Of a DNA stretch of 64,000 bases, positions 53,630 through 64,000 are shown one piece after another. Under the pieces are notes generated by a model. The model was not told the origin of the DNA, searched no databases, and saw nothing but the letters and a program-made list of their open reading frames with translations. Numbering within the stretch: the first letter of the stretch is position 1; each line of letters begins with the position of its first letter. This DNA is from Gluconacetobacter aggeris. GTDB lineage: Bacteria; Pseudomonadota; Alphaproteobacteria; Acetobacterales; Acetobacteraceae. Both the position numbers and the translations under genes were made by a program. The stretch covers positions 1 through 64,000 of the forward strand of contig NZ_JABEQD010000010.1 in assembly GCF_014174395.1 (NCBI RefSeq), in the 5' to 3' direction.

Positions 53630-53920
53630 AAGCACGCCCCCTCGGGCGGTCCCGCACTCTACCCGGCAGAGCCGCCGCACCGGCCACGCACCGAAGCACA
53701 GGGAACCCACCGGGCCGCTCGTCCGTTGACCTATGCTTTTTTATGCACAAGGCATGCCTGCGGGCCATTTGAAATTGCACGCTCATTACGGGGATGCTTC
53801 GATACGATCGTTGGTCGCTATTTTTTCTATCAACACTCTATTTTGGTAATTATACGGAGCCGATCGTATTATATCAGCCGCGATACGTTGTTATTCATAT
53901 TGTCATAAGGCTCAGTAGAA
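53630..53920. promoter_or_regulatory. Intergenic region with AT-rich promoter of the LysR/ureide-type locus
   Basis: After a GC-rich 3' stretch, 53725-53915 becomes AT-rich with repeated TAT and TTG motifs, marking the likely promoter of the 53.9-64 kb operon. No gene seen. Confidence 0.5.
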
Positions 53921-55177
53921 ATGGAACTGCCGGCCCTGATCTATTTTACGAGCCTGATCAACGAGGGCTCCGCCGCCTCGGCCGCCCCGGTGCTTGGCGT
54001 CAGCGCATCCACGCTCAGCCACAGCGTGTCCGCCCTGGAGCAGGCCATGGCGACATCGCTGCTGTCCCGCTCGTCACTGCGCCGGGGCAGCAGGGCCGTC
54101 ACGACCGCGCAGGGCGAGAGCCTATACCGTTCCGCCCTGCACCTGCTGGGCTGGTGCCTGACCCTGATCGAGGACGATAATCGTTCCCACCTGGCCCCGC
54201 CGGAACGCGACACCGCCGGCCCGCTGCCGACGCATCGCCTGCGCGCATTGCTGGGCTCGGGCCTGACGCTGCGCATGATCGGCTATTTCCTCTCCGTTTA
54301 CGAAACCCGGCGGATCGCCGCCGCCGCGCAGCGCCTGTCGCTGACCCAGCCCACGCTCTCCCGCCAGATCGGCCGGCTGGAGACGATTCTCGGCCGGACA
54401 TTATTTGTACGCAGCCCCCATGGCGTCATGCCGACGGCAGAGGCCGAGGCGCTGCGCCAGGGCTGCCAGCAGGTGGACCAGACTCACCGGCAGATCATGC
54501 GCGACGAGAATTTCAGCTATTTCCGCGCGTTCAGGACCCTGAAGCTCGCATCGATGATGCCGACCAGCAGCGACAGTTCCCTGACATTCCTGCTGGCCAA
54601 TCTGGTCCGGCTGTGGCGCCACCGCCGCTACCAGCCGCCCCTGACGATCTCGACCATCGCCGCGCCGCAGATGGTGGAGGGGCTGCTGGACGGACGGTTC
54701 GATGCCGGCCTGTCCGACCTGATCGACATCCCGCTGGACCTCGACAGCGCGGAACTGGAAAAATCCGCGATCTTCCTCGTCTTCGGCCGGGCGCACAGCC
54801 CGCCGCCGGGCCAGACGCCCCGGATCGCCCTGGCCTCGTACCTGCTGACGGTGCCCGCCCTGGGCACGGGGCTGCGCCGGGTCACGGACCGCTATCTGGA
54901 CCAGGAAGGCATTACACCGGGCGGCATCTTCGAGACCCAGTCGCTTTCGCTGATGCTGCGCCTGGTCGAGGACGGCACCTGCTGCGCCATCCTGCCCGCC
55001 GGCTCGTTCCGCTCCCATGCGGTCCATGCCGTCCCCCTGCCCGACCGCTACCGGATGACGACGCGCCTGATCTGGAAGAAGGAGCACCCCAACCTCGCCA
55101 TCATCGGCCGGTTGCAGGCCGGCCTGGCGGAAATCCAGGCCGAGGCCGGCTCGGCGGGACGGAAATCCGTCGCATGA
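53921..55177 (+). CDS. LysR-type regulator with two HTH domains
   Basis: At 418 residues it is about 110 longer than usual. Residues 1-70 (YFTSLINEGSAASAAPVLGVSASTLSHSVSALEQ) form one LysR-like winged HTH, and residues 115-175 (YFLSVYETRRIAAAAQRLSLTQPTLSRQIGRLE) a second, better conserved one. The co-inducer domain starts near 205. The joining segment (75-110) is Pro/Arg-rich. It begins a plus-strand locus, and its stop overlaps the next gene by four bases (ATGA), so it is probably autoregulated along with the locus. The first HTH is degenerate and may bind a second site or serve dimerisation. Confidence 0.85.
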   Translation: MELPALIYFTSLINEGSAASAAPVLGVSASTLSHSVSALEQAMATSLLSRSSLRRGSRAVTTAQGESLYRSALHLLGWCLTLIEDDNRSHLAPPERDTAGPLPTHRLRALLGSGLTLRMIGYFLSVYETRRIAAAAQRLSLTQPTLSRQIGRLETILGRTLFVRSPHGVMPTAEAEALRQGCQQVDQTHRQIMRDENFSYFRAFRTLKLASMMPTSSDSSLTFLLANLVRLWRHRRYQPPLTISTIAAPQMVEGLLDGRFDAGLSDLIDIPLDLDSAELEKSAIFLVFGRAHSPPPGQTPRIALASYLLTVPALGTGLRRVTDRYLDQEGITPGGIFETQSLSLMLRLVEDGTCCAILPAGSFRSHAVHAVPLPDRYRMTTRLIWKKEHPNLAIIGRLQAGLAEIQAEAGSAGRKSVA

Positions 55178-56526
55178 GCAGCACCGCCTCCATCCTCTCC
55201 CCCGCCCTGCGCCGCCGGCGCCAGATCACGCTCCTGCTCCTGATGGCGGCCGGATGCGTCAGCTATATCGATCGCGCCGCCCTGTCGGTCAGCAATACGG
55301 CCGTGATGGCCGACATGCACATGTCCTACACCCAGATGGGCCTGCTGCTGTCGGTCTTCGCCTGGGCCTATCTCGCCGGGCAGATCCCGACGGGCCTGCT
55401 GGCCGACCGGTTCGACAGCCGCTTCCTTCTGGGGGCGGGCCTGGTCCTCTGGTCGTGCGCGCAGATGGGCTTCGGTCTGATGCACGGCATCGCCGGCCTG
55501 TTCGTCGCGCGTATCGGGCTGGGACTGGGCGAAACCCCCTTGTTCCTGTCCGGCACCCGCGCGCTGGTCCGCTGGTACCAGCCTCGCGAACGCGGGCGTC
55601 CGCTCGGCCTCTTCAACGGGTCCGCCGCCCTCGGGCCGGCCCTGGCCCCGCCGCTGCTGCTCGCGATCATGGCGCTCTGGGGCTGGCGGGGCATGTCGGT
55701 CGCGATCGGTGCCGCCAGCCTGGTGCTGGCCTTCGTGTGGATCCGCTTCTATCGCGACCCCGCCGACCTGACTCTGAGCGCCGCGATGCGCAAGGCCCTG
55801 CCCCGCCCCGGCGCCCCGGTGCCGGCGAGCATCGTGCAGTCGCTGCGCGCCGATCTCGGCTATCTGCTGCGCCGGCGTTCAAGCTGGGTCCTGACGGCCG
55901 GCTATGCCGGCGTGATCTATCTGACCTGGCTCTACGCCACATGGATGCCCGCATGGCTCCAGACCTCCCGCCACCTGACGATCGGGCAGGCCGGGATGCT
56001 GTCCGCGCTGCCGCAATTCTGCGGTTTCGCGGGCAACGTGCTGGGTGGGGTGGTCGTCGACCGCCTGGCCGCCCGGGGCGTGGGGCTGCTGAATGCCTGC
56101 CGCGCCCCGCTGGTGCTGGCCATGCTGGTGGCCGCCATCGCGACCACGCTGACCACGCTGCACACGCCATTGGCGGTCATGATCGCCTTCATGGCCATCG
56201 CCCTGTTCGCGGGCGGCCTGGCCATCAGTTGCGGCTGGATGCTCGGCACCGTGATCGCGGCCGAACACCGGGTCGCGACCCTGCAGGCCATCCAGAATAC
56301 CGGGGGCTCGCTCGGCGGCGCACTGGCCCCGGCCATCACCGGGCTGCTGGCCGACAGGTTCGGCAGCTTCACCCCGTCCCTGCTTACCGCCGGCGCCATC
56401 GGACTGGGCACCGTCGCGATCTACCAGATCGGCCTGCGCCCGGAAGACGTCGCCGCGCACGCCTCCCTGCCGAACGGCCAGCCGCCATCCCGCCTCCCAG
56501 GCGCCACAGGATGCAACAAGGAATGA
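55174..56526 (+). CDS. MFS transporter, anion:cation symporter-like
   Basis: The 450-residue carrier has 12 predicted membrane helices. CVSYIDRAALSVSNTAVMADM with the helix 1-2 region, and LLADRFDSRFLLGAG at the loop 2-3 motif, fit the ACS family (organic anion or sugar-acid carriers). It overlaps the regulator by four bases. The stop is five bases before a TonB receptor gene. The substrate is probably that of the locus, a charged small organic compound. Confidence 0.85.
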   Translation: MSSTASILSPALRRRRQITLLLLMAAGCVSYIDRAALSVSNTAVMADMHMSYTQMGLLLSVFAWAYLAGQIPTGLLADRFDSRFLLGAGLVLWSCAQMGFGLMHGIAGLFVARIGLGLGETPLFLSGTRALVRWYQPRERGRPLGLFNGSAALGPALAPPLLLAIMALWGWRGMSVAIGAASLVLAFVWIRFYRDPADLTLSAAMRKALPRPGAPVPASIVQSLRADLGYLLRRRSSWVLTAGYAGVIYLTWLYATWMPAWLQTSRHLTIGQAGMLSALPQFCGFAGNVLGGVVVDRLAARGVGLLNACRAPLVLAMLVAAIATTLTTLHTPLAVMIAFMAIALFAGGLAISCGWMLGTVIAAEHRVATLQAIQNTGGSLGGALAPAITGLLADRFGSFTPSLLTAGAIGLGTVAIYQIGLRPEDVAAHASLPNGQPPSRLPGATGCNKE

Positions 56527-56530
56527 CCCG

Positions 56531-58921
56531 ATGACATCACGACGGATTCTCGCGCTCTCCACCATGCTCGGCGGCCTCGCGATCGCACCCCAGCTCCACG
56601 CCGCATCCCCCACGCCGGAGGCCCGCCGCACGCCTGCCCCGGCACAGGCGACCTCGCGCCCGAGCGCCCCGGCCACCACCCATCGCGCCGCCGGCACGAC
56701 CGGCGCGGGCAAGGCGGCAGCCGGCACCCCGGCCCCCGCCAACGAGGCCATCTCGGTCTTCGGCCATGGCTCGACCCGGCAGATGACCAGCGTGACGCGC
56801 ACCATGATGCAGCAGAGCGTGCCGGGCACCTCGCCGCTGAAGGTCCTCAGCCAGCTTCCGGGCGTACTCTACCAGTCCGCCGATCCGTTCGGCGCCTATG
56901 AATATTCCAGCCAGATGTTCATGCGCGGCTTCAACCAGTCGCAGCTCGGCTTCACGCTCGACGATATTCCCCTCGGCGATCAGCAGTTCAACAATTACAA
57001 CGGCCTGTCCGTCACACGCTCGATCATCTCCGACGATGTCGGCGGCGTCGACGTCTCGCAGGGCGCCGGCGCGATTGACGTGGCCTCGACCAGCAACCTG
57101 GGCGGCGCGATCCAGATCCGTTCGATCGATCCGTCCCATGTGCGCGGCGGCACGGTCGCCCAGACCTTCGGCAGCAATTCGACGATGCGGACCTACGCGC
57201 GCTTCGAAAGCGGCGATCTCAATCCAACCGGCACCCGCTTCTACGTCGCCTATGCCCGGCTGAACGGCAATCTGTGGAAGGGCGGCGGCTACGATCATTC
57301 GGACCAGGTCAACGCCAAGCTGGTCCAGCCGCTGGCGCGCGGCTCGTCCCTGAAACTGTTCTTCGACTGGAGTTCGATCCAGCAGTTCGACTATCAGGAC
57401 ATGACCAAAAACTGGCTGAACACGGTCGGCCCCAACCTGGCGAACTACTACCCCGACTATACGGCCGCGTACAACGCGGCACGCGGGACCTATCCCGCGC
57501 CCCTGCAGAAAACGAACGACCCGTTCGATGCCGCCTATTACGCCGGCACCGCCAACCGCACCGACTATCTCGGCGGGCTCACGCTCGACGAAAATCTCAG
57601 CGAGACGCTCAACTGGAAGACGACGTTATACGGCCACGCCAATAACGGCTACAGCACCTGGACGACGCCCTACATGCCCTCGCCCAACGGCGCGCCGCTC
57701 TCCCAGCGTATCCAGACGCCCAATGTCGCACGCGGCGGCTTCCAGAGCGCGGTGACATGGAAAATCGCACGCCATGCCGTCAATGCCGGCGTGTGGTACG
57801 AATACGGCAATTTCAACGAAGGCCGCTATTTCTCCGAAGCCCCGCTGCTGGGCCAGGGCACGCTCGGCAACCCCACCACCGGCTTCCCGGCCGACAAGGT
57901 GTTCGCGACGGCCTGGCAGGAAGCGTTCTCGACCCGGACCTTCGTGTTTCACCTGCAGGATACCTACAAGGTCACGGACAATTTGACGATCAATGCCGGA
58001 TTCAAGTCCATGATCGTCAATTCCGGCAATTCGGTGCCGACGCAGGACGGCACCATCAACGGCACGCGGGTCGCTCAGGGGCATCTGGAGGCCTCGAACG
58101 CCTTCCTGCCGCAGGTCTCGGCCAACTGGCGCTTCCTGCCGCATAACGAACTGTTCTTCGATGTGTCGCACAATATGCGCACCTTCCCGCTCGACGGGTA
58201 CGGCACCAACGTATCGGCCACGCCATGGACCGCGTCGCAGGCCTCGTTCCAGGCCACCCGCAACACGCTGAAGCCCGAAACCGACTGGGTCTATGAAGGC
58301 GGCTACCGCTACACCTCGCCCCTGATCAGCGCGCTGGCCTCGCTGTATCGCGTCAATTTCTCCAACCGCCTGCAATTGATCACCAGCCAGGCCGGCATCA
58401 ATCCGGTCACCGCGGTGCAGAATGTCGGCGGGGTCACGACCAACGGCGCCGAGGCCAGCGTGACGCTGCGCCCGGTGCGCGGGCTTTCGATCTACAATTC
58501 GTTCTCCTACGCCCATTCGACCTACGACCAGAATGTCATGACCGCGACGGGGCCGCAGCCGACGCGCGGCAAGCTGGTGCCGAACTACCCGCAATTCATG
58601 TATAAGGGGAACATCTCATACGCCATCGGCAATTTTGACGCCCATGTCGATGGCACCTACCTGTCCCGCCGCGAGCTGACCTACACCAACGACCTGCGCG
58701 TGCCGGGCTATTTCCTGATGAATTTCGGCATGCGCTATCATTTCGGCCAGGTGGGGCCGTTCAAGGGCCTGACGGCCAGCTTCAACGTCTACAACCTCAC
58801 CAACAAGACCTACATCGCCACCACGAACGAGCTGGGGAACAATTTCGTCAATACGGACTTCAATTATTTCCTGATGGGCGCTCCTCGCCAGTTCTTCGGC
58901 ACCGTCAGCGCGGATTTCTGA
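56531..58921 (+). CDS. TonB-dependent outer membrane receptor
   Basis: The 796-residue protein has a signal peptide (cut after QLHA, about 24), an Ala/Pro/Thr-rich linker, a plug domain (about 68-200, with LKVLSQLPGVLYQSADPFGAYEYSS and MRGFNQSQLGFTLDDIPLGDQQF) and a beta-barrel ending in Phe. The plug has the usual RGF motif. It sits in the operon with two MFS carriers and three catabolic enzymes, so it probably imports the pathway substrate and not iron; that is inference from location. Confidence 0.88.
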   Translation: MTSRRILALSTMLGGLAIAPQLHAASPTPEARRTPAPAQATSRPSAPATTHRAAGTTGAGKAAAGTPAPANEAISVFGHGSTRQMTSVTRTMMQQSVPGTSPLKVLSQLPGVLYQSADPFGAYEYSSQMFMRGFNQSQLGFTLDDIPLGDQQFNNYNGLSVTRSIISDDVGGVDVSQGAGAIDVASTSNLGGAIQIRSIDPSHVRGGTVAQTFGSNSTMRTYARFESGDLNPTGTRFYVAYARLNGNLWKGGGYDHSDQVNAKLVQPLARGSSLKLFFDWSSIQQFDYQDMTKNWLNTVGPNLANYYPDYTAAYNAARGTYPAPLQKTNDPFDAAYYAGTANRTDYLGGLTLDENLSETLNWKTTLYGHANNGYSTWTTPYMPSPNGAPLSQRIQTPNVARGGFQSAVTWKIARHAVNAGVWYEYGNFNEGRYFSEAPLLGQGTLGNPTTGFPADKVFATAWQEAFSTRTFVFHLQDTYKVTDNLTINAGFKSMIVNSGNSVPTQDGTINGTRVAQGHLEASNAFLPQVSANWRFLPHNELFFDVSHNMRTFPLDGYGTNVSATPWTASQASFQATRNTLKPETDWVYEGGYRYTSPLISALASLYRVNFSNRLQLITSQAGINPVTAVQNVGGVTTNGAEASVTLRPVRGLSIYNSFSYAHSTYDQNVMTATGPQPTRGKLVPNYPQFMYKGNISYAIGNFDAHVDGTYLSRRELTYTNDLRVPGYFLMNFGMRYHFGQVGPFKGLTASFNVYNLTNKTYIATTNELGNNFVNTDFNYFLMGAPRQFFGTVSADF

Positions 58922-58932
58922 CCGGAACCGTC

Positions 58933-60297
58933 ATGACGCAACAGCCACAGGGACGAAACGGAAAAGCGCTGATTGCCGCTGCCTGCATCGGCAATCTTCT
59001 GGAGTGGTACGATTTTTCGGTCTACGCCCTGTTCGCGCCCTATATCGCCCATGCGCTGCTGCCCCCGGCCGACCGCCTGTCGCAACTGGCGCAGGGCCTG
59101 CTGGTCTTTGCCCTGGGGGCGGTCGCCCGCCCCCTCGGCGCGCTGCTCCTGGGCCAGCTTGCCGACCGAAGGGGGCGCGGCCCGGCACTGATGCTGACCT
59201 GCCTGCTGATGGGGGCAGGCACGGCACTGATCCTGTTCGACCCGCCCTATGCCACGGCAGGGCGCGCCTCCATCGTCATCCTCTGTCTTGCGCGGCTGTT
59301 GCAGGGCATTTCGGCGGGCGGCGAGATCGGCGGCGCCGCCTCCTTCCTGGTCGAAGGCGCGAACAATGGCCGCCCCGGCTTCGCCGGCTCGTTCCTGCAG
59401 GCCACCATGGGCCTGTCCAACATGCTCGGTGCCGCCGTCGCCGTAGGCCTGACCGCGCTGCTGAGCGATGCACAGATGGCCCAGTGGGGCTGGCGGGCAC
59501 CTTTCGCCGTCGGGCTGCTGATCGTCCCCTTCGGCATCATCCTGCGTCGCGGCAACGCGGCACCGAAGCGCCCTGCCACCGACCATGGCCCCATCCTGCG
59601 CGACCTGGCCCGCCACCATGGCGGCCGCTTCGTCGCGGCACTCGGCCTGTCCCTGCTCTGGGGTGCCGCACCCTATGCGCTGGTCATCTACCTGCCGCTT
59701 TACGCCCAGCGATTCAGCGGCGTCATCCCCCATGGCAGCTATGTCGCCGCGCTGGCCGGCAATCTCGCCCTGGTCGCCGGTTCGCTGACGGCGGGGGCGC
59801 TGGCGGATCGGATCGGCGTCCGGCGGCTGCTGGTGGCGGCGACGCTGATGCTGATCGCCCTCCCCGGCCCGATCCTGGGCCTCCTGAAATACGATCACGG
59901 CACGGCCGCGATGATCGCGGTCGCGGCCAGCCTGTGCGGCCTGGTGGCGCTGTTCGTCGGCGCCGCCCCGCTCGGCATCGCCAGCCTGTTCCCGACCCGT
60001 ATCCGCGCGACCGGTATCGCCCTGTCCTACAACGCCTCCGTTTCGCTGTTCGGCGGCTTCGCCCCTGCGCTGCTCGCCAGCCTCGGCCTGGCCTGGCACG
60101 GCATGCCCAGCCCGGCCCTTTATGTCGCGCTCGCCGGGCTTCCGGCCCTGGCGGCGCTGCTGTCACCGCCCTTCGCCCCCGCCCGCACAGCCCGGATTGC
60201 AGAAAATTCTATAGGCCTTGCACAAAAAAGCATAACCGCGCCGATACCCCGGAATGGGAGACTGGCTTCGGCAACCAGGGACGAAACGCTGTCGTGA
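58933..60297 (+). CDS. MFS transporter of the metabolite:H+ symporter (MHS) type
   Basis: A 454-residue 12-helix carrier. GNLLEWYDFSVYA at helix 1 and PLGALLLGQLADRRGRGPAL at the 2-3 loop are the hallmarks of the MHS family (shikimate, proline-betaine, dicarboxylate carriers). 11 bp after the TonB receptor. Its stop overlaps the GTG start of the lyase gene by four bases, so they are coupled. It may import the substrate or export a product. Confidence 0.88.
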   Translation: MTQQPQGRNGKALIAAACIGNLLEWYDFSVYALFAPYIAHALLPPADRLSQLAQGLLVFALGAVARPLGALLLGQLADRRGRGPALMLTCLLMGAGTALILFDPPYATAGRASIVILCLARLLQGISAGGEIGGAASFLVEGANNGRPGFAGSFLQATMGLSNMLGAAVAVGLTALLSDAQMAQWGWRAPFAVGLLIVPFGIILRRGNAAPKRPATDHGPILRDLARHHGGRFVAALGLSLLWGAAPYALVIYLPLYAQRFSGVIPHGSYVAALAGNLALVAGSLTAGALADRIGVRRLLVAATLMLIALPGPILGLLKYDHGTAAMIAVAASLCGLVALFVGAAPLGIASLFPTRIRATGIALSYNASVSLFGGFAPALLASLGLAWHGMPSPALYVALAGLPALAALLSPPFAPARTARIAENSIGLAQKSITAPIPRNGRLASATRDETLS

Positions 60298-61829
60298 CCC
60301 CCATCTCCCTTTCCGGCGAAACGCTGCCGCTGACCCGGCTCACCGCCATCGCCGATGGCGCGCCGGTCACGCTGGGCCCGGACGGCATCGCCCGCCTGCG
60401 CATGGGCGAACGGGCACTGCACGAGGCCCTGGCCCGGGGCGACGGCATCTACGGCACCACCAGCATGGTGGGCGCCTTCAAGGATCACGGCGTCACGGAT
60501 GACGACCGGCCGAAATACGCCCTGCGCCTCCTGCGCTCCCACCTGCTCGGCACCGGGTCCTACCTGCCGCGGCGGGTGGTCCGGGCCGCGATGGCGATCC
60601 GCCTCAACACGCTGCTGACCGGTCACGCCGGGGCCAGCCTCTATCTGGCTACGGCCCTGGCGGACCTGCTGAATGCCGGAATCACCCCCGCCGTGCCCGA
60701 ATACGGGTCGATCGGCTGCGCGGATGTCGGCCTCATGAGCCATATCGGCGCGACCCTGCTGGGCGAGGGCCTGGCCTTCGCCCCCGAAGACGGCCCGGCG
60801 CTGCCCTCCGCAACCCTGCTGGCGCGGTTCGAACTCAAGCCCATGGTGCCCGGCCCGAAGGACGTGATGTCGGTCCTGTCCAGCAATGCGCTGGGGGTCG
60901 CGGGGGTGGCGCTGGCCGCGGCCGACCTGCGGGGCCGCCTGCCGCTGCTGCTGCACGTCTTCGTCCTGGCCGCCGCGGGTTTCGGCGCCTTCGGCATCCC
61001 GTGGGAAACCGCCCGCCTGGACGGGCTGCGGGACGAAGCCCGCATCGCCCGCTACCTGCAAGGGCTGACAAGTCCCGGCGACTGGACACCACGCCGCAAC
61101 CTGCAGGACCCGTTGAGCTTCCGCTGCATGCCGCAGATCGCAGGCGCCCTGGTCGCGGCGCTCGATCGCGTCGAGGCCACGCTGGCCCACAGCATCGCCC
61201 ATGCCGACGACAACCCGATCCTGTTCGACGGGCGGGCCATGACCTCCGGCGCCTCCCTGCCGCTCGCCCTGGCGCTGGACGCGCAGGCGCTGGTGATCGC
61301 GCTGTGCCATTACGCCCGCAGCACGCTCGGCCGCATCCTCGCCTCCTGCCGCGAGGATCTGTCCGGCCTGCCGCGCAACCTCACGCTCGATCCCGGCCGG
61401 CAGGTCGCCTTCGGCGCCGCGACCAAGCTGGCCGCCGACCTCACGACCGCGATCCTGCGCGAATCCACCCCGGCCTCGCTCTACCAGATCCCCGTCGCCA
61501 ACGGGTTCGAGGACGAGGCCAGCTACCTGCCCTCGGTCGCCCGCGCGCTGGGCGTGCAGATGGACCTGCTCTCCCCTCTGATCGCGCTGGAAGCCATGGC
61601 CGCCCGCCAGGCCATCCGCCTGTCGGACGCCAGGCCGACCGGCAGCCCCGGCGCATTGCTGGCCGAACTCGACCGTCATGTGCCGCTTCTGGACGATAGC
61701 GGCGCCGTGTCCGACGCCGTGCATCGCACGGAAGATATCCTGGTCCGCTTCGCCACCCGCCTTGCCGACCCGCTCCCGGCGGATCTCGCCTTTCCGCCAC
61801 CCCCGTTTCAGGAGAATGCCCGTGCATGA
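60294..61829 (+). CDS. HAL/PAL-family aromatic amino acid lyase homologue lacking the MIO triad
   Basis: The 511-residue protein has the full fold of histidine/phenylalanine ammonia-lyases: IYGTTSMVGAF with Tyr53, the helix around GSIGCADVGLMSHIG (138-152), GPKDVMSVLSSNAL, QDPLSFRCMPQ (271-281) and HADDNPILFDG. The Ala-Ser-Gly triad that cyclises into the MIO electrophile should lie at GSVGASGD; here the segment is GSIGCAD, so Ser is absent. The Tyr of QDxYSxR is Leu274. It therefore cannot act as a normal ammonia-lyase by the known mechanism. GTG start overlapping the carrier gene. Function unknown; location suggests a step before ring opening. Confidence 0.8.
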   Translation: MTPISLSGETLPLTRLTAIADGAPVTLGPDGIARLRMGERALHEALARGDGIYGTTSMVGAFKDHGVTDDDRPKYALRLLRSHLLGTGSYLPRRVVRAAMAIRLNTLLTGHAGASLYLATALADLLNAGITPAVPEYGSIGCADVGLMSHIGATLLGEGLAFAPEDGPALPSATLLARFELKPMVPGPKDVMSVLSSNALGVAGVALAAADLRGRLPLLLHVFVLAAAGFGAFGIPWETARLDGLRDEARIARYLQGLTSPGDWTPRRNLQDPLSFRCMPQIAGALVAALDRVEATLAHSIAHADDNPILFDGRAMTSGASLPLALALDAQALVIALCHYARSTLGRILASCREDLSGLPRNLTLDPGRQVAFGAATKLAADLTTAILRESTPASLYQIPVANGFEDEASYLPSVARALGVQMDLLSPLIALEAMAARQAIRLSDARPTGSPGALLAELDRHVPLLDDSGAVSDAVHRTEDILVRFATRLADPLPADLAFPPPPFQENARA

Positions 61830-63186
61830 CCTGCTGTTCAAAGGCCATGTCGTCACCGCGAATACGGTGCTCGAAAATGGCTGGGTGGCCGTCGATGCCG
61901 GCCGCATCAGCCACGTCGGCCAGGGTCTCCCTCCCACCGCCCGTCAGGTCGAGGATCACGGCGACGCGCTGATCCTGCCCGGCGCCATCGACGCGCAGGT
62001 CCATTCCCGCTCGCAGAAGGGGCAGGAAGATTTCGTATGGAGCACCCGCGCCGCCGCCGCCGGCGGCGTCACGACGATTGCCGATATGCCCTATGATGAC
62101 GGGTTCCTGGTCTGCACGGCCGACAATCTGCGCCAGAAGGCGCGGGAAGCCGGTGAGCAGGCCCGCGTCGATTTCGCGCTGTGGGGCACCATCGCCCCCG
62201 ATGACGGCCCGCACCATATCCCCGAAATGGCGCGGGCCGGCGCCTGCGGCTTCAAATTCTCGACCTTCGGCACCGATCCCGTCCGCTTCCCCCGCATCCC
62301 GCCGGACCTGCTGGCCGCCTGTTTCGAATCCGTGGCCCAAACCGGCCTGATCGCCGGCGTGCATAACGAGGATGACGAAATGGTCCGCGCGCGGATCGCG
62401 GCGGTGACCCGCTCGGGCATCACCGACTGGCGCGCCCACGGCCTGTCCCGCCCGGCGCTGGCCGAAACGCTGGCCATGGCCCAGATCTACGAGACGGCAG
62501 CCGCCACCGGCTGTTCGGGCCATGTCGTCCATTGCTCGGTCGCACGCGGCTATGCGCTGTGCGAATCCTATCGTCGGCAGGGGTTCGATACGACGATCGA
62601 AGCCTGCATCCACTATCTGGTGCTGGACGAGGAGCATGACGTCGCCCGGCTGGGCGGCCGCGCCAAGATCAATCCCCCCATCCGCCCCCGCGCCGAGGTC
62701 GAAGGCATCTGGCACCATCTGGCCGCCGGCAACGTCACGATCGTCTCGACCGACCATGTGTCCTGGTCGCTGGCCCGCAAATCCGACCCCGACATGCTGA
62801 AGAACGCGTCCGGCGTGCCGGGACTGGACGTAATCTATCCCCTCCTGCTGACCGAACTGTCCCGCCGCAACCTGTCCCTCACCCACGCCAGCCGGCTGCT
62901 GTCGGAAAACCCGGCCCGCCTGTTCCGCCTCACCGCCGGCAAGGGCGGGCTGGCCCCGGGCCGGGACGCCGACATCACCATCGCCCGGCGCGAGACCTGG
63001 CGCTACGACCCAGCCGCCAGCGACAATGTCCTGACGGACTGGAGCCCCTATGCGGGCCGCGAACTCGACTGGCGCATCGCCGGAACATGGCTGCGCGGGC
63101 AACAGGTCTTCGACGGGCGGACCGTCCTCGCCACACCGGGCACCGGCCGCTTCGTCACGCCCGAACAGCCCTCCGGCCTGCGATGA
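61822..63186 (+). CDS. Cyclic amidohydrolase, allantoinase/hydantoinase/dihydroorotase type
   Basis: The 454-residue protein of the amidohydrolase superfamily aligns best with allantoinases. Metal-site residues from the GTG start: D57, Q59 and H61 in GAIDAQVHSR (the first His of DxHxH is Gln), the carboxylated Lys145 in CGFKFS, His181 in VHNEDD, His237 in VVHCS, and Asp in STDHVS. The C-terminal SPYAGRELDWRIAGTWLRG matches the family. It opens cyclic ureides or hydantoins. GTG at 61822 has GGAG seven bases upstream, so it is preferred to ATG at 61816. It overlaps the lyase gene by eight bases. Confidence 0.85.
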   Translation: MHDLLFKGHVVTANTVLENGWVAVDAGRISHVGQGLPPTARQVEDHGDALILPGAIDAQVHSRSQKGQEDFVWSTRAAAAGGVTTIADMPYDDGFLVCTADNLRQKAREAGEQARVDFALWGTIAPDDGPHHIPEMARAGACGFKFSTFGTDPVRFPRIPPDLLAACFESVAQTGLIAGVHNEDDEMVRARIAAVTRSGITDWRAHGLSRPALAETLAMAQIYETAAATGCSGHVVHCSVARGYALCESYRRQGFDTTIEACIHYLVLDEEHDVARLGGRAKINPPIRPRAEVEGIWHHLAAGNVTIVSTDHVSWSLARKSDPDMLKNASGVPGLDVIYPLLLTELSRRNLSLTHASRLLSENPARLFRLTAGKGGLAPGRDADITIARRETWRYDPAASDNVLTDWSPYAGRELDWRIAGTWLRGQQVFDGRTVLATPGTGRFVTPEQPSGLR

Positions 63187-64000
63187 GCATCGCCACGCAC
63201 GTCCGGCCCGACCGGCTCCAGGCCGATCTCGACGCCCTGGCCGCCATTACCGATCCCGGCCGCCCCCATACGCGCCGCTCCTTCTCGCCCCGCTTTCTCG
63301 AAGGCCGCGCATGGCTCGCGACGCGCTTCCAGCAGGCCGGCCTCACCACCCAAATCGACGAGTCCGGAAACCTGATCGGCCGCCGCGGCGGCACCACGCC
63401 CGGCCTCGGCACGCTCATGACCGGCTCGCATTCCGACACGGTGCCCGATGGCGGCCGTTTCGACGGCATTCTCGGCGTCCTGGCGGCGCTGGAGGCCGCA
63501 CGGGCCTTCGCCGATGCCGGGATCGCCCTGCGCCACGACCTCGAAATCGTCGATTTCCTGGCCGAGGAACCCAGCGATTTCGGCCTGTCCTGCATCGGCA
63601 GCCGTGGCATGGCCGGCGCCTTGTCGGCCGAGCATCGCACCCTGCGCGCCCCGTGGGACGAAAGCCTGGCCGACGCCCTGGCCCGCATGGGCGGCGATCC
63701 CGGCCGGCTGGACACACCGCGCCGCACCGATATCCGGGCTTTCTTCGAACTGCATATCGAACAGGGCATCGTCCTGGAGCAGGCACAGACCCAGATCGGC
63801 GTGGTCGACGCCATCGCCGGCGTCACCCGGCTGGAAATCGTCTTCTCCGGCCGCGCCGACCATGCCGGCACCACGCCGATGGACCTGCGGCAGGACGCCG
63901 CCGTCCCCGCCGCCGCGATCGTCGGCTTCGTCCACCAGCGGGCCAGCGCGCTGGCCCGCTCCGGCGCAGGCCATGTCACAGCTACCTGCGGCGTGCTCGC
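63183..64000 (+). CDS. N-carbamoyl-L-amino-acid / allantoate amidohydrolase (5' part)
   Basis: 272 codons of a zinc amidohydrolase of the M20 fold (hydantoinase/carbamoylase family); the end is outside the window. Metal and substrate motifs are present: GSHSDTVPDGGRFDGILG (81-98), DFLAEEPSDF with the catalytic Glu pair, ELHIEQG and ADHAGTTPMDLRQDA. It hydrolyses N-carbamoyl compounds to amino acid, carbon dioxide and ammonia, so it would follow the ring-opening enzyme directly. Its ATG overlaps the previous stop by four bases. Confidence 0.88.
   Translation, partial: MSIATHVRPDRLQADLDALAAITDPGRPHTRRSFSPRFLEGRAWLATRFQQAGLTTQIDESGNLIGRRGGTTPGLGTLMTGSHSDTVPDGGRFDGILGVLAALEAARAFADAGIALRHDLEIVDFLAEEPSDFGLSCIGSRGMAGALSAEHRTLRAPWDESLADALARMGGDPGRLDTPRRTDIRAFFELHIEQGIVLEQAQTQIGVVDAIAGVTRLEIVFSGRADHAGTTPMDLRQDAAVPAAAIVGFVHQRASALARSGAGHVTATCGVL

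Follow-up and report, generated by a model that had tools for sequence, protein, structure and literature searches.

A nine-gene operon predicted for ergothioneine catabolism in Gluconacetobacter aggeris, with a TonB-dependent receptor and a double-HTH LysR regulator

A five-step bacterial catabolism of ergothioneine was reportedly described by Beliaeva, Leisinger and Seebeck in 2021, and an ergothionase of Burkholderia sp. HME13 is said to have been characterized by Muramatsu in 2013. The available part of PMC13405746 states that ergothionase works without the MIO group, citing the Burkholderia enzyme and the Treponema denticola structure. For uptake, a bacterial ABC importer specific for ergothioneine is presented in the available part of a 2022 Nat Commun paper (PMC9732360).

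The locus examined here is predicted to encode the same five activities as the five-step pathway, four of them by equivalog models. It differs in having a TonB receptor, two MFS transporters and a double-HTH LysR regulator in the operon, and in a lyase that falls on a separate branch of a free tree. Dedicated bacterial uptake is a theme shared with the ergothioneine importer; there, as far as the available part of PMC9732360 goes, the system is an ABC transporter of a Gram-positive, whereas here it comprises a TonB receptor and MFS proteins of putative function. Histidine utilisation (HutH, HutU) employs homologous lyase and hydratase folds. By contrast, the lyase of this locus has no MIO triad, the hydratase is of the thiourocanate type, and a desulfurase, a hydantoinase and a carbamoylase follow. 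The pathway itself is known, and the uptake and control genes of the operon look new.

Operon layout and pathway enzymes

The window, i.e. the whole stretch of DNA that was analysed, spans positions 1 to 64000 of a contig of 164829 bases, and the sequence to its right could therefore be read as well. The operon consists of nine genes, all on the plus strand, in the order LysR, MFS, TonB receptor, MFS, ErtA-D-E-C-B. Seven of them lie at least partly inside the window, and ErtC and ErtB lie outside (numbering is continued beyond 64000).

53843-53872 (L002 1843-1872), plus strand: sigma-70-like promoter match with 9 of 12 consensus bases, some 50 bases ahead of the LysR gene
53921-55177, plus strand: LysR-type regulator with a pair of N-terminal HTH_1 domains and a single substrate-binding domain (Pfam HTH_1 twice, LysR_substrate)
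55174-56526, plus strand: ACS-type MFS transporter (PF07690, MFS_1); ATGA overlap with the LysR gene
56531-58921, plus strand: TonB-dependent outer-membrane receptor (PF07715, Plug, and PF00593, TonB barrel, each above its cut-off); 4-bp gap before it
58933-60297, plus strand: MHS-type MFS transporter (Pfam MFS_1/Sugar_tr); 11-bp gap before it
60294-61829, plus strand: ErtA, MIO-less HAL-fold lyase, predicted ergothionase (PF00221, Lyase_aromatic, above cut-off); GTG start, GTGA overlap
61816-63186, plus strand: ErtD, hydantoin-5-propionate amidohydrolase (Pfam Amidohydro_1, NF058538); 14-bp overlap with the lyase gene
63183-64436, plus strand: ErtE, N-carbamoyl-L-glutamate amidohydrolase, an M20 amidase (Peptidase_M20, NF058540); ATGA overlap, gene cut at 64000 by the window edge
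64464-65570 (beyond the window), plus strand: ErtC, thiohydantoin desulfurase, 1107 bases (NF058529)
65574-67232 (beyond the window), plus strand: ErtB, thiourocanate hydratase, 1659 bases (NF058530)
67290-68336 (beyond the window), minus strand: Rieske-type protein gene, convergent, downstream of ErtB

The promoter match is weak: the region has 3, where shuffles lead one to expect 1.5. ORF coordinates and junctions, together with Pfam, agree with the initial annotation in its account of seven plus-strand genes joined by overlaps or by gaps of 11 bp or less. Its hydantoinase and carbamoylase pair also holds, the two proteins belonging to Amidohydro_1 and Peptidase_M20 and passing the ErtD and ErtE models. 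Ergothioneine breakdown had been named as an analogue that does not have this set of genes: it is indeed the nearest analogue, and the reservation falls away, inspection to the right of 64000, as had been proposed, having located the two remaining enzymes, the thiohydantoin desulfurase and the thiourocanate hydratase, just past that position.

Four of the five enzymes, all but the lyase, exceed NCBIfam equivalog cut-offs of ergothioneine catabolism: ErtD (NF058538, 758.4 bits, cut-off 600), ErtC (NF058529, thiohydantoin desulfurase, 593.2 bits, cut-off 440), ErtB (NF058530, thiourocanate hydratase, 989.1 bits, cut-off 930) and full-length ErtE (NF058540, 554.5 bits, cut-off 520). Because these four pass and the lyase is nearest to the T. 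denticola ergothionase (see below), the operon very probably encodes the five-step route already known to lead from ergothioneine to glutamate, with nothing new in its chemistry, as far as can be predicted from sequence.

The substrate class first proposed, a cyclic ureide or hydantoin, was half right: hydantoin-5-propionate and N-carbamoylglutamate would be intermediates, not the substrate. A new cyclic ureide or hydantoin route, to which the presence of a hydantoinase and carbamoylase pair might point, is extremely unlikely, since the thiourocanate hydratase and thiohydantoin desulfurase in the operon leave no step missing, and the allantoin models score below cut-off (AllB/allantoinase TIGR03178, 279 versus 358; AllC/allantoate deiminase TIGR03176, 231 versus 598) while those for ErtD and ErtE pass. 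The allantoin route was rejected on these scores; histidine and free hydantoin routes were likewise rejected, with model scores under cut-off and the MIO triad absent from the lyase. For ErtE, the margin over the equivalog cut-off is small (554.5 versus 520).

The genome encodes one PF00221 protein and one urocanase-family match, and contains no match to the EgtD-type domain PF10017, to which the search for synthesis genes was confined. For these reasons, the bacterium is predicted to have neither ergothioneine synthesis nor the usual histidine route via these genes.

We suggest, with high confidence for a sequence-based prediction, that the nine genes serve the use of ergothioneine as a source of nitrogen, carbon and sulfur. 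By homology, ErtA would convert ergothioneine to thiourocanate and trimethylamine without an MIO group, ErtB would hydrate thiourocanate to thiohydantoin propionate, ErtC would remove the sulfur as H2S to give hydantoin-5-propionate, ErtD would open the ring to N-carbamoyl-L-glutamate, and ErtE would release L-glutamate, CO2 and NH3. Conserved linkage is the basis for the remaining roles: the TonB receptor might carry ergothioneine, or a complex of it, across the outer membrane, the MHS-type MFS might be the ergothioneine permease of the inner membrane, the ACS-type MFS might move a pathway compound in or out across the inner membrane, and the double-HTH LysR might switch the operon, with ergothioneine, thiourocanate or a later intermediate as its signal.

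The MIO-less lyase

At the MIO site the window lyase reads GSIGC-AD versus GSVGASGD; the A-S-G triad is replaced and the site is one residue shorter, as expected of the MIO-less HAL homologue first recognized here. None of the NCBIfam models that the lyase matched is for ergothionase; the matches were to HAL-type models, far under their cut-offs (hutH, 194 versus a cut-off of 539), and seven further lyases from other loci, all devoid of the ASG triad, were likewise below NCBIfam cut-offs. Its best PDB match by sequence is 6s7j, the T. denticola ergothionase (182 bits). Foldseek and VIA-align both place 6s7j first for the predicted fold, the AlphaFold model of which falls below a pLDDT of 50 over the lost MIO site (residues 139-144) and over residues 399-408. 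In these fold matches, the margins of 6s7j over HAL-type enzymes are modest.

With the T. denticola ergothionase (PDB 6s7j, 6s7q) the window lyase shares the HAL fold, the lack of MIO, and identity at nine of nine compared active-site positions, which were chosen from HAL active-site positions rather than from the structure paper, plus K377 and L273 from the alignment. The H82/N197 pattern of 6s7j is retained. By contrast, the two enzymes are only 28% identical in the structural alignment, and the lost MIO site is CAD in the window lyase and EGD in T. denticola. ErtA is predicted from these comparisons to be an ergothionase (ergothioneine trimethylamine-lyase).

The lyase had initially been regarded as a novel, non-canonical kind, a view that is contradicted by the solved structure of an MIO-less ergothionase (6s7j). 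In the free lyase tree, the window lyase and related alphaproteobacterial enzymes (18 rows) stand apart from the T. denticola ergothionase clade (4 rows). A separate, new kind of lyase would still be too strong a claim, as a joint clade with the T. denticola ergothionase is not rejected (p-AU 0.482), although the free tree does not recover it.

Placement outside the T. denticola clade might also indicate that the substrate is S-methyl-ergothioneine or ergothioneine sulfonate rather than free ergothioneine, and related pathways do exist (the S-methyl models of NCBIfam, and a sulfonate pathway cited in the available part of PMC13405746). This is very unlikely. The S-methyl pathway was rejected on model scores, both being below cut-off (NF058531, S-methyl thiourocanate hydratase, 753 versus 880; NF058532, S-methyl thiohydantoin desulfurase, 280 versus 450), whereas the free-thione models pass. 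A desulfurase would be unexpected where sulfonate can depart as sulfite, and the conserved H82/N197 pattern argues against either substrate. Free ergothioneine is the substrate that we favour.

Conservation of the operon and its TonB receptor

A sample of 83 loci was compiled from the best 80 of 351 relatives in a search of genome contigs, together with the window, L034 and L129. A sample of the best 80 favours close kin, and many of the loci are from Rhizobium. All 16 acetic acid bacterial loci of this sample (best 80 of 351 plus these three) have the complete set of nine, with order and strand unchanged. Among them is L034, the nearest locus by place from another genus of the same family, with identities to the window from 51% (LysR) to 82% (ErtC). 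Neither neighbour of the operon, the CxxCxxCC gene on its upstream side or the Rieske gene on its downstream side, has a match in L034. The nine-gene order is kept in another genus and throughout the 16 acetic acid bacterial loci, which makes the layout more than chance. The compact catabolic operon of the initial annotation is thereby upheld, and the conserved neighbourhood that had been set beforehand as its test was found.

The other 67 loci, which are not from acetic acid bacteria and are again among the best 80 of 351 relatives, contain ErtD in 62, ErtE in 64, ErtB in 65 and a lyase match in 56 cases, one being a true HAL. The MHS-type MFS is present in 7 (six near-identical Pseudochrobactrum-type loci and one of Trinickia), and the TonB receptor and ACS-type MFS in none; 54 of the 67 span at least 7 kb on either side of ErtC, and elsewhere an absent gene may be off the end. 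Within 397 family genomes, the same 8 have both ErtC (81% identity or higher) and the lyase (53% or higher), with weaker matches to ErtC (35-59%) in 7 more and to the lyase (31-35%) in 10 more. ErtC homologues at 57-59% identity are found in other genera of the family, and no other ert gene was nearby in the 3 of 5 such loci that were inspected.

Neither MFS transporter reaches the cut-off of its nearest NCBIfam subfamily, which is TIGR00893 (ACS/D-galactonate; 219 bits, cut-off 395) for the ACS type and TIGR00883 (metabolite/H+ symporter, ProP-like; 276 bits, cut-off 443) for the MHS type. Judged by ErtC, 6 of 14 genomes of the genus have the operon. A receptor orthologue 75-81% identical is encoded in 5 of the 8 others (G042, G215, G247, G277 and G300), all without an ErtC match. 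In three of these ert-less congeners the genes near it are those of an XRE regulator, an ACS-type MFS, a desaturase-like protein and a PhnD-like protein. In the receptor tree, non-ert copies occur in two places among the ert copies, and the starred branches require two changes or more. When plasmids were searched with the receptor, all 16 records found were relatives below 60% identity.

Because ert-less congeners carry orthologues that are interleaved with ert copies in the tree, a receptor for this pathway alone is disfavoured, and to call it exclusive to ergothioneine would be too strong. Most simply, ert and non-ert settings would share a ligand, or a receptor with another ligand would have been reshuffled. 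The ert enzymes might thus act on ergothioneine while the TonB receptor and the ACS-type MFS import other cargo (e.g., a metal chelate or another betaine) and are merely carried along. This would fit the orthologues of the ert-less congeners, their gene neighbours and the interleaved tree, and ergothioneine is small enough for porins. It fits less well with the fixed position that receptor and MFS occupy within the operon in all 16 loci from acetic acid bacteria (best 80 of 351 plus the window, L034 and L129), or with the receptor of L034 being better conserved (70%) than the lyase (53%). We rate such a carried-along transport part at clearly under an even chance. Conserved linkage makes ergothioneine the receptor's ligand in our preferred reading, at about even chance.

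No paper treating ergothioneine, hydantoin and TonB together was found in the literature searched, and papers with both ergothioneine and 'TonB-dependent' concern other matters, to go by titles and abstract openings. The initial annotation had found the TonB receptor unfamiliar in such a layout; the literature searched gave no description of it either, and an outer-membrane receptor as part of an ergothioneine operon looks new.

A LysR regulator with two HTH domains

The genome has 62 HTH_1 matches in 61 frames, and the LysR of the operon is the only frame with two. The 83 loci (best 80 of 351 plus the window, L034 and L129) contain 29 LysR-type frames, spread over 28 loci, at 1.5 kb or less from an ert gene. 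Two HTH domains are present in 25 of these frames, as counted with an HTH profile derived from the same regulators; the counts lack independence, with six near-identical Pseudochrobactrum-type loci and many Rhizobium loci lacking a LysR frame that close. Farther off, the figure in the same loci is 7 of 64; the operon's own regulator in the window, in L034 and in L129 accounts for three of the seven.

The double-HTH LysR comes in two forms. The shorter, at about 385-515 aa, is built as HTH-HTH-ligand domain; in the longer, at about 605-670 aa, some 300 residues separate the two HTHs. Pfam identified two HTH_1 stretches in the window LysR and in 9 of 10 members of each of two sets of other regulators. 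The exceptions are L053, with one HTH_1 when trimmed to the start codon and two in the stop-to-stop frame, and L156, with one and an annotation without urocanate hydratase. The locus end truncates the LysR gene in the 13 named loci from acetic acid bacteria; the copies read at full length are those of the window, L033, L034 and L126-L130.

Two plasmid loci annotated with an amidohydrolase, DUF917 (ErtC) and a urocanate hydratase, and no lyase, also have a double-HTH LysR, beside TRAP transporters. We therefore consider thiourocanate or a later intermediate more likely as the putative LysR ligand than ergothioneine itself. A search for literature on LysR proteins with two HTH domains found none, as judged by titles and abstract openings, and a LysR with two DNA-binding domains in an ergothioneine operon looks new. 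Taken together, that acetic acid bacteria actively import ergothioneine via a dedicated TonB receptor, and that alphaproteobacterial catabolism is controlled by an undescribed class of double-HTH LysR sensing ergothioneine or thiourocanate, is a tentative proposal that we place a little short of even.

The puzzling layout of lyase, hydantoinase and carbamoylase would thus be the visible part of a complete ergothioneine catabolism. An acetic acid bacterium whose own genome has no sign of making ergothioneine, by the PF10017 search, is predicted to consume this fungal antioxidant. If the receptor does take ergothioneine, it would provide an outer-membrane route for a compound without such a route in the literature searched. 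The tandem-HTH LysR proteins may serve as a marker for ert loci, and raise the question of why two DNA-binding domains are used for ergothioneine.

Lyases related to ErtA

The Acetobacteraceae hold a further group of HAL-like proteins that lack the MIO-forming ASG triad (loci L136-L141, L143 and L145). In this group the triad site mostly reads AGD, and position 82 is R in 8/8 rows. Among five of these loci, widened to 14-20 kb, homologues of ErtB, ErtC and ErtD were found in none, and a weak ErtE-like match was found in one.

Ergothionase homologues of the EAD type are encoded at:
L076 14132-15772, Trinickia
L062 5649-7271, Pseudochrobactrum

Judged by eye, the N-termini of both resemble signal peptides, which would fit a periplasmic location of the lyase in these two genera. 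Record L074 bears the title Bacillus subtilis SK6B4. Its ert locus is almost identical to that of Pseudochrobactrum, and the record is probably mislabelled or contaminated.

Gene neighbourhoods in Gluconacetobacter

Downstream of the ert operon, and convergent to it, lies a cluster with a Rieske-type oxygenase, an 8-oxoguanine-deaminase-like amidohydrolase (NF009059 score above cut-off) and two SsuA-like binding proteins, which are in tandem and related to each other. In three Gluconacetobacter genomes without the operon, genes near the orthologue of its TonB receptor encode an ACS-type MFS transporter, a regulator of the XRE type, a protein resembling fatty-acid desaturases and a PhnD-like binding protein.

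L002 15290-19850 (contig C10 67290-71850), convergent cluster
L131 4980-11447 (also in L132 and L133), receptor-orthologue neighbourhood

Long LysR regulators and plasmid loci

In three LysR proteins of 605-617 aa, the second HTH lies at about residue 310, and Pfam recognises only a single ligand domain in each:
L062 12832-14646
L049 918-2738
L054 5311-7161

On two plasmids, genes for ErtC, an amidohydrolase and a urocanate hydratase lie close to a TRAP transporter:
L155 8353-13805, Paracoccus aminophilus pAMI4
L157 8357-13809, Thalassospira marina plasmid

No lyase is annotated within the stretch in either plasmid. It is possible that these gene sets serve the use, as food, of thiourocanate made by others.
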